From Actinomycetota bacterium (GTDB taxonomy: Bacteria; Actinomycetota; Actinomycetes; Propionibacteriales; Propionibacteriaceae), in assembly GCA_020161795.1 (NCBI GenBank), contig JAIUOR010000028.1, positions 62,001 through 126,000 on the forward strand: DNA of 64,000 nucleotides, given 5' to 3'. The notes below the pieces were generated by a model that was not told the origin of the DNA, did not search any database, and worked only from the letters and a program-made list of their open reading frames with translations. Of this stretch, positions 18,240 through 23,522 are shown in pieces. The position numbers were made by a program, and so were the translations under genes. Positions within the stretch are counted from its first letter, which is position 1, and each line of letters starts with the position of its first letter.

Positions 18240-18267
18240 TTGGGAAAAATACCCCAGGGGGTATAGT
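18240..18267 (+). promoter_or_regulatory. Promoter with CsoR/CstR-type operator in its spacer
   Basis: TTGGGA at 18240-18245 and TATAGT at 18262-18267 form a -35/-10 pair with a 16-base spacer. Inside the spacer lies the perfect dyad ATACCCC-AG-GGGGTAT at 18249-18264. This is the known operator form for the CsoR/RcnR/CstR repressor family, which respond to copper, nickel/cobalt or persulfides. Bound repressor would block the promoter. The regulated genes are the Cys-rich protein and DUF4395 protein downstream. No family regulator is in the window. Confidence 0.75.
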
Positions 18268-18318
18268 GACGATCGAGATCGCCCCGACGGGGCGGGGATG
18301 TCATGAAGGGAATCCGGA

Positions 18319-18504
18319 ATGTGCCGAGCGGTGGAGTGTCGGGTCTGCGGGAAGACGACGTGGGCGGGCTGCGGGCAACATGTGGCGTCGGTCAAGGCCA
18401 GTGTTCCCGCGAGCCAGTGGTGCGGCGGCAAGCACACCCAGGCGCAGCTCGACGCTGCCCAGGCCGACCAGAAGAGCTTCCTCGCCCGCCTGCTCGGACG
18501 CTGA
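18319..18504 (+). CDS. Small Cys-rich protein under CsoR/CstR-type control
   Basis: A 61-aa soluble protein with C2, C7-x2-C10, C18-x2-H21 and C35, a likely zinc-knuckle-like or copper/persulfide-reactive site. AAGGGA precedes the ATG by seven bases. It lies 52 bases after the TATAGT box whose spacer holds a CsoR/CstR-type dyad and is followed 60 bases later by a DUF4395 gene. Metal binding or sulfur handling is an inference from the cysteines and operator. I recognise the sequence style as actinobacterial but know no characterised family. Confidence 0.75.
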   Translation: MCRAVECRVCGKTTWAGCGQHVASVKASVPASQWCGGKHTQAQLDAAQADQKSFLARLLGR

Positions 18505-18564
18505 CCGCCGCCTTCGGCATGGCGTTCGAGGCTGAGCAGCGCGCACCGGAGCTGAGGGTTCGCA

Positions 18565-19116
18565 ATGGATGCTGCCACTGAGGTACCCCGGATCGGTGGG
18601 TTCGTCCCGGGCTATCAGGTGCCGGTGATCAACGAGCGCGCGGTGCGAGTGGCGGCGGGCATCCTGTTCCTGGCGGGCGGAACCGCGCTGGTGCTGGCTG
18701 TCGTCGAACAGTCGGTTCGTCCGCTGCAGCCCTTCGGCATGTTCTTCGTGATCGACATGTTCGCGCGCGTCCTCGCTGGTGACCGCTGGTCACCGACGCT
18801 GGCGCTCGGCCGACTGATCGTCCGCCGCCAGCGACCCGAGTGGGTCGGCGCGGCCCAGAAGGAGTACGCGTGGTGGCTGGGCCTCGGCCTGGCGCTGACC
18901 TCCTGCCTGACGATGGGGCTGTTCGCGGTGCCGCTGTGGGTCACGCTGGTGCTCTGCGGCAGCTGCCTGACGCTGCTCTTTCTCGAAGCCGCGTTCGGCA
19001 TCTGCGTCGGGTGCGCGTTGCAGGCACGCTTCGGCAGGCGTCCGCCGATGTACTGTCCGGGCGGAAGCTGCGAGGTGGATCGCAGCGGGTCACCCGGCTC
19101 GTCAGCCCCGCTGTGA
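18565..19116 (+). CDS. DUF4395 membrane protein
   Basis: A 183-aa protein of the DUF4395 family with four hydrophobic segments. VPVINERAVRVAAGILFLAG is the usual start of the domain and FGICVGCALQARF with paired Cys is its usual end. A later tail has CPGGSCE, another Cys pair. DUF4395 genes are often found with rhodanese, thioredoxin or CsoR/CstR-family genes, so a role in sulfur or thiol stress is plausible. The stop overlaps the convergent VOC gene by 15 bases. Same operon as the Cys-rich gene upstream by position. Confidence 0.8.
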   Translation: MDAATEVPRIGGFVPGYQVPVINERAVRVAAGILFLAGGTALVLAVVEQSVRPLQPFGMFFVIDMFARVLAGDRWSPTLALGRLIVRRQRPEWVGAAQKEYAWWLGLGLALTSCLTMGLFAVPLWVTLVLCGSCLTLLFLEAAFGICVGCALQARFGRRPPMYCPGGSCEVDRSGSPGSSAPL

Positions 19117-23001: not shown

Positions 23002-23262
23002 TCAGCGGCCGTAGTGATAGCGGCAGGCGGCGATCCGGATCTCCTTGCCGACGATTTTGTAGACGAGTCGATGTTCGTCGGTGATGCGTCGTGACCAGTA
23101 GCCGGCGAAGTCGTGCTTGAGGGCCTCGGGCTTGCCGATACCTTCGTTGCCACTACGTGAGACGTCCTCAATGAGAGTGTTGATGCGCTTAAGTACACGG
23201 CGGTCCTGCGCCTGCCACCACAGATAGTCGGCCCAGGCGTTCTCGTCCCAGACGAGGAGCAT
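23002..23262 (-). CDS. yoeB: YoeB-type mRNA interferase toxin
   Basis: An 86-aa RelE-superfamily toxin that cleaves mRNA in the ribosomal A site. The whole protein aligns with E. coli YoeB by eye: WDENAWADYLWWQAQDRRVL, then GIGKPEALKHDFAGYWSRRI, then HRLVY and ACRYHYGR. The catalytic residues E46, R65 and H83 and the adjacent Y84 are at the same positions. The gene starts two bases after the antitoxin stop. An active toxin is expected. Confidence 0.95.
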   Translation of the reverse strand: MLLVWDENAWADYLWWQAQDRRVLKRINTLIEDVSRSGNEGIGKPEALKHDFAGYWSRRITDEHRLVYKIVGKEIRIAACRYHYGR

Positions 23263-23264
23263 GT

Positions 23265-23522
23265 TCAGTCGGCGTCGATCAGGTCGTGGGACTCGCCCCG
23301 GCCGGATTCCAGCCGCTCCATGGCGTCGAGAAGGCGGCGCGCGTTGGCGGGGGAGCGCATCAGATAGGCGGTCTCCTTGAGCGCCTCGTAGTCCTCGAGC
23401 GAGACGATCACGACGGGCTCGTGCCCGGCACGCGTGATCACGACCTCTTCGCGATCATCGACCACCGAGTCGAGAACCTCGGCGTAGCGAGCCCGAGAAT
23501 CTGTGTAGCTGAGCGTCTTCAC
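23265..23522 (-). CDS. yefM: YefM-type antitoxin
   Basis: An 85-aa Phd/YefM antitoxin. KTLSYTDSRARYAEVLDSVV and VVITRAGHEPVVIVSLEDYE are the DNA-binding half, and YLMRSPANARRLLDAMERLE is the YoeB-neutralising tail. GTG at 23522 follows AGGAGGG. Directly upstream are two TGTACA-type sites. The pair autorepresses in E. coli by conditional cooperativity; the same is expected here. Confidence 0.93.
   Translation of the reverse strand: MKTLSYTDSRARYAEVLDSVVDDREEVVITRAGHEPVVIVSLEDYEALKETAYLMRSPANARRLLDAMERLESGRGESHDLIDAD

Follow-up and report, generated by a model that had tools for sequence, protein, structure and literature searches.

In the window, the stretch of 64 kb of DNA analysed here, a perfect 16-bp dyad, ATACCCC-AG-GGGGTAT, stands in a promoter-like sequence and is followed by the gene of a 61-residue protein, for whose family we coined the label Q, and by the gene of a DUF4395 membrane protein (Table 1). 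Behind these lies a convergent glyoxalase-like gene; no copper efflux or chaperone gene was found 3′ of the dyad, and the regulator gene does not adjoin the operon. An earlier note on this DNA had described correctly the dyad, the spacing C7-x2-C10 and C18-x2-H21 in the first product and the cysteine pair at the end of the second. It had also let the dyad fill the 16-bp spacer between TTGGGA and TATAGT. The dyad does lie between the two boxes; its right arm covers the first three bases of the −10-like box, however, so strictly speaking the dyad overlaps the spacer and does not fill it. Elsewhere in the window two adjacent small open reading frames look like a toxin-antitoxin pair of the YefM/YoeB type.

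Table 1. Features of the window and N4 sites (half-sites four bases apart) on other contigs (C) of the same genome
Feature	Position	Strand	Remark or genes that follow	Basis
−35-like TTGGGA	18240..18245	+		consensus resemblance only
CstR-type operator (predicted) ATACCC-N4-GGGTAT, ATACCCCAGGGGGTAT	18249..18264	.	exact	sequence and conservation 5′ of homologs
−10-like TATAGT	18262..18267	+	first 3 bases under dyad right arm	consensus resemblance only
Shine-Dalgarno-like AAGGGA	18306..18311	+	7 bases 5′ of ATG	sequence
Gene for 61-residue protein Q (MCR..C7xxC10GKTTWAGC18GxH21...C35)	18319..18504	+		ORF, homologs
DUF4395 membrane protein gene, CPGxSC-tailed form	18565..19116	+	presumed second operon gene, 60-bp gap	PF14340
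Two adjacent small ORFs	23002-23522	-		
N4 site	C58:10061		oxidoreductase fused to rhodanese	Pfam Pyr_redox_2 + Rhodanese
N4 site	C58:10516		CstR-type regulator	
N4 site	C58:15233		Q paralog, rhodanese, thioredoxin, YgaP-like membrane gene	
N4 site	C50:210245		thioredoxin, then second CstR-type regulator	
N4 site	C15:57983		another oxidoreductase-rhodanese and third Q	
N4 site	C62:145596		rhodanese	
N4 site	C52:56497		SQR-like flavoprotein	Pfam Pyr_redox_2 without Rhodanese

A scan of the window with up to three mismatches allowed returned the dyad as the sole match, and as an exact one; the shuffled window gave 1.12 matches, and a first-order model predicts 2.3e-5 exact dyads per 64 kb. Throughout the genome (3.47 Mb) the shorter pattern TACCC-N4-GGGTA occurs exactly eight times versus two for the reversed control, with 0.36 (first-order model) or 3.4 (base composition) expected, a count that by itself is poor evidence of a regulon. 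The longer ATACCC-N4-GGGTAT occurs seven times, its reversed control not at all, and 0.014 are expected (first-order model). Each of the seven N4 sites outside the window has sulfane-sulfur or CstR-type genes behind it. The flavoproteins on C58, C15 and C52, to which Pfam assigns Pyr_redox_2 with or without Rhodanese, are presumably those that go by the names CoA-disulfide reductase and SQR.

The CstR-type regulators encoded on C58 and C50 have two cysteines and lack the copper histidine (Ser in the former, Gly in the latter). In the PDB, the C58 protein matches best the entries 7mq1/7mq2; their label there is csoR, and we take them to be the pneumococcal CstR. Two copper-type CsoR genes (C20 and C32), with the motif C..H..C, lie in CopA loci, and the dyads there have a spacer of five bases (N5), ATACCCCTAGGGGGTAT before CopA and ATACCCTAGGGGGGTAT before CsoR; the window site thus differs from the copper form TAC-X9-GTA. 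The genome has five exact TACCC-N5-GGGTA sites. Four lie at copper genes, and among these four is a tandem pair at a single CopA. The fifth site (C18:1302, G000) stands before a GDSL-type lipase gene, not a copper gene.

Among 98 sampled genomes of the class Actinomycetes, exact ATACCC-N4-GGGTAT is present in 31 and the N5 form in 53. Loci were picked by operator from among the matches listed, own genome included and the N4 place G085:C62:53713 left out, and their neighbours were sorted with a sulfur marker set that includes Q and thioredoxin. The 65 N4 loci comprised 55 with sulfur markers, one with both kinds, nine with neither and none with copper markers alone; the 72 N5 loci comprised 49 with copper markers, one with a sulfur marker (rhodanese), two with other CsoR-family genes and 20 with neither. 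When the 56 sulfur-marked N4 loci were split strictly, 36 had a sulfur enzyme or transporter, seven a CstR-type regulator only (with or without thioredoxin or Q), seven Q only (the window being one of them) and six thioredoxin only; among the N4 loci L190 is a duplicate of L005, and L007/L016 and L137/L138 overlap. Taking one locus per genome left 15 sulfur and six marker-less loci for N4 (n = 21), and 19 copper, nine marker-less and two other CsoR loci for N5 (n = 30). CsoR-family neighbours lacked the copper histidine at N4 sites (20 of 20, one gene counted twice) and had it at N5 sites (20 of 22).

Because all these loci had been picked by their operator, loci picked by protein were tested in the same 98 genomes. 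The best 30 for the C50 CstR held 23 N4 sites and the best 30 for the C20 CsoR 23 N5 sites; the remaining seven of each set had none, and other spacers did not occur. Absent from the operator-picked loci were 11 of the 23 sites in the CstR set and 17 of the 23 in the CsoR set. The histidine was found in none of the 27 readable regulators of the 30 picked with CstR and in all 25 readable ones of the 30 picked with CsoR. By genome, CstR-type genes (42 genomes) and N4 sites (31 genomes) share 29 (p 1.3e-12). Outside the class, the cstR operons on plasmids of S. saprophyticus and S. pasteuri have N4 spacing with one to two mismatches, and the CstR-like loci of Leuconostoc and Levilactobacillus also have N4 spacing; in this small, hand-picked set of four the site is exact in one and has one or two mismatches in three.

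Several further genes adjoin such sites. Genes at L142 and L264 (DUF4396) and at L155 and L250 (ArsP-like, ArsP_1 permease) lie 3′ of N5 sites and are candidate members of the copper regulon. In each of two genomes an N4 site adjoins the gene of an Rv2466c-like mycothiol-dependent protein (L226:3061-3669 and L186:806-1429), which suggests a link between the persulfide regulon and mycothiol, and a DUF302 gene (L219:1820-2212) begins 62 bp 3′ of an N4 site. These two and one genes at marker-less N4 loci could widen the regulon. The other neighbours of marker-less N4 sites (a response regulator, an ArsR-type regulator, a Mycobact_memb protein, alanine dehydrogenase and MMPL) have no evident tie to it.

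Q loci numbered 110 with the window and 106 after four duplicates had been dropped, some near-identical loci being kept. An exact N4 dyad stands within 150 bp of Q in 61 of the 106, 33-98 bp before the start; seven have a dyad with one mismatch, 15 have an exact dyad 150-5200 bp further up, in most cases immediately ahead of a sulfur gene or regulator lying upstream of Q; the other 23 lack a recognisable dyad. Spacers of 1-3 and 5-9 bases were absent from the 150-bp stretches 5′ of Q. The whole loci contain 101 N4, three N5 and one N9 sites, and outside the 150-bp stretches there are just 21 N4 sites in 751 kb. The earlier note had assigned the dyad to the CsoR/CstR family, an assignment that is supported, and had named a lack of the dyad upstream of homologs as a refutation; these counts show that this did not come true.

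Named contigs supplied 76 distinct Q loci; within up to 5 kb on each side of Q, 57 of them contain a gene for a sulfur enzyme, a transporter or a CsoR-family regulator, and five contain CopA. Not one of the 53 CsoR-family genes that the Q loci contain (duplicates counted; 14 read by eye) codes for the copper histidine. Labels of PDO and CDR that an iterated profile gave to near relatives turned into rhodaneses in a stricter pass, whose counts are used here, and automatic neighbour clusters were discarded (one giant artefact cluster, opposite-strand shadow ORFs). Of the 34 class genomes with Q, 23 carry a CstR-type gene (p 5e-4) and 11 do not at a cut of 70 bits. Q and the exact dyad meet in 17 genomes, out of 34 and 31 respectively (p 0.006), a modest tie at the level of genomes. 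DUF4395, which the earlier note had also named as a partner to look for, is present in only five of the 76 loci.

Q was found in 34 of the 98 class genomes, one of them by a weak match, and in 35 of 60 near genomes, own genome counted; the latter has three copies, in the window, on C58 and on C15. GTDB contigs yielded at least 363 relatives, of which the best 80 were kept. Plasmid records matching Q number 53, and among the 25 matches listed three are annotated as hypothetical protein and 22 have no listed gene. A homolog with 52.5% identity is present in MT835623.1 (19139-19300), an unannotated record from human faecal samples deposited as phage.

The window Q has five cysteines in 61 residues, in the arrangement C2, C7-x2-C10, C18-x2-H21 and C35. 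C2, C7, C10, W15, G17, C18, G19, H21 and C35 are unchanged in all 125 distinct sequences collected from the loci (second copies within one locus counted), and these positions plus M1 are invariant in an alignment of 97 rows. A conserved GFFxRLFGR-like tail closes the long forms and is missing from the short ones, which are common and have about 38 residues. A search of Pfam and NCBIfam gave no family above its cut-off (DUF702, at 15.3 bits and E 0.03, fell below its cut-off of 20.6), the PDB sequence search gave no match up to E 10, and a fold search against the PDB with the predicted model (pLDDT 85.2, pTM 0.58) nothing better than E 2.8.

The second product scores 86.9 bits with PF14340 (E 1.9e-24; cut-off 24.5) and therefore belongs to the DUF4395 family, which is present in 77 of the 98 class genomes (76 above the cut-off). 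It has C147-x2-C150, found in all three aligned sequences and in the others compared, and C164-x4-C169 in its tail. Beside DUF4395, the 30 class loci with the best scores contain what we take to be a sulfurtransferase-like gene in 25 cases, a thioredoxin-like one in 24 and a DUF1416-like one in 23, which for this usual locus bears out the link with sulfur genes asserted earlier. No exact N4 site occurs in these 30 loci; unlike this usual arrangement, the window copy combines an N4 site with a CPGxSC tail. It resembles the copies in PDO-TauE-DUF4395-rhodanese operons, two of which (L053 and L056) share the tail. Since DUF4395 adjoins just one of the 65 N4 loci, the window itself, it appears to be an occasional member of the regulon and not part of its core. 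On a Microbacterium plasmid an annotated operon has Q, thioredoxin, MBL hydrolase, TauE, DUF4395 and rhodanese in a row, with an exact N4 dyad before Q; at this operon (L338:4931 and 4965) an exact dyad with a spacer of three bases was seen 34 bp upstream of the exact N4 dyad. Mentions of DUF4395 in the literature were found only in works that, judged by title, treat other subjects.

We consider it highly probable that the window operon is of the CstR type and responds to persulfide, the dyad serving as operator for a CstR-type repressor whose gene lies at another place in the genome, and this is by far the best reading. The letters of the DNA themselves establish the predicted operator, its conservation, the genes behind the same operator and the type of the regulator. 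Persulfide has strong support from three sides: the spacing of the operator, the genes that follow the genome's seven other sites, and the kind of CsoR-family regulator encoded in the loci of Q. The repressor would come from the CstR-type gene on C58, that on C50 or both. Resting cells would have CstR covering the spacer and the −10-like box and blocking transcription. When persulfide or polysulfide rises, two cysteines of CstR would be modified and CstR would leave the DNA, a step assumed by analogy with staphylococcal CstR and S. coelicolor ScCsoR. Q and DUF4395, probably co-transcribed, would then be made along with the oxidoreductase-rhodaneses, rhodanese, thioredoxin, the SQR-like enzyme and CstR itself.

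Q may be a small carrier or buffer of sulfane sulfur, probably stabilised by zinc bound to C7, C10, C18 and H21; C2 and C35, which never vary, are its putative reactive thiols. It could pass sulfur between rhodanese, persulfide dioxygenase and thioredoxin, and DUF4395, with its CxxC and CPGxSC motifs, might be its membrane partner in this genome. With the regulation unchanged, Q could instead be a zinc-binding adaptor or regulator, for example an anti-repressor of CstR or a docking partner of an enzyme via the GFFxRLFGR-like tail, a reading to which we give somewhat less than an even chance: the C-x2-C-x7-C-x2-H spacing, the tail conserved in the long forms and the very small size speak for it, whereas the four putative ligands are no more invariant than C2 and C35, and forms without the tail are common.

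Returning to the operator, we find it very improbable that the site serves CsoR as well as CstR and mediates cross-talk between copper and persulfide. The two operator types are one base pair apart, one N4 locus (L227) holds both kinds of marker and one N5 locus (L251) a rhodanese; yet the regulons are separate in both directions, in operator-picked as in protein-picked loci, and in the Thermus CstR-like protein TTHA1953 the addition or removal of one spacer base changed the Kd about 10- or 15-fold, according to passages of PMC10318464. Control by copper via CsoR, with Q as a small copper-binding protein of the metallothionein kind, is unlikely to the point of deserving hardly any credence and was dropped on operator spacing and regulator type: the dyads are of the same family, the genome has two copper-type CsoR genes and Q is rich in cysteine, but the genome's two CsoR(His)/CopA loci have N5 instead of N4 dyads, N4 was found in none of the 30 CsoR-selected loci, no CsoR-family gene of Q loci has the copper histidine, the window Q has only five cysteines in 61 residues and CopA adjoins just five of the 76 Q loci from named contigs. 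The earlier suggestion of induction by persulfide or copper is thereby narrowed to persulfide, copper being unsupported because the copper-type loci of the genome and of the class carry the five-base spacer.

A broader proposal, which we advance tentatively and would not yet call probable, joins these observations: paralogous CsoR-family repressors would have the half-sites ATACCC and GGGTAT in common and be kept distinct by the spacer, four bases for persulfide (CstR) and five for copper (CsoR), in the class and probably in Bacillota too; and Q would be the first representative of a class of zinc/persulfide relay proteins, widespread, unnamed and about 38-65 residues long, in the actinobacterial persulfide response. 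With such a spacing rule the DNA sequence would suffice to predict whether copper or reactive sulfur is the signal at a CsoR-family site. A hypothetical protein of about one third of the sampled class genomes (34 of 98) becomes a candidate component of persulfide handling, and a family of no known function points to an overlooked part of actinobacterial sulfur detoxification.

The module was called undescribed in the earlier note, which is too wide a claim. The CstR-type regulon is already known, also in Streptomyces, from the staphylococcal cst operon and the ScCsoR circuit (partial text of PMC7533328). New, as far as the literature was searched, are the family Q, the form of DUF4395 and the explicit spacing rule. 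The search included passages of PMC7533328, PMC3902906, PMC10318464, PMC9918477, PMC5480029, PMC9405070 and PMC4938975; nothing recognisable as Q and no statement of the rule was found in the material covered, and the rule may have been described earlier for S. aureus CsoR/CstR or in the 2021 description of CstR.

The staphylococcal cst operon (CstR, CstA, CstB, SQR, TauE) has a CstR regulator and a four-base operator spacing like the window, and unlike the window its plasmid-borne versions have neither Q nor DUF4395 among the annotated genes. The S. coelicolor circuit (SCO0618-0620) has the same operator spacing, ATACC-n6-GGTAT, a CsoR-like repressor, ScCsoR, that polysulfide detaches from this site, and PDO, rhodanese and TauE as targets; it consists of four genes, and the available passages contain neither Q nor DUF4395 and, while stressing the similarity to CsoR and RicR sites, no distinction by spacing (PMC7533328). 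The copper CsoR regulon of S. lividans shares with the window system the TAC/GTA inverted repeat, the G tracts and the protein family; its site is TAC-X9-GTA (N5) and its targets are copZA, whereas the window has TAC-X8-GTA (N4) (PMC3902906, in part). The site of TTHA1953 has four bases between the repeats and no G tracts, and NaHS caused no loss of binding (passages of PMC10318464). Set side by side, the sites published for ScCsoR, S. lividans CsoR and TTHA1953 agree, within the parts of these papers drawn on here, with the spacing rule.
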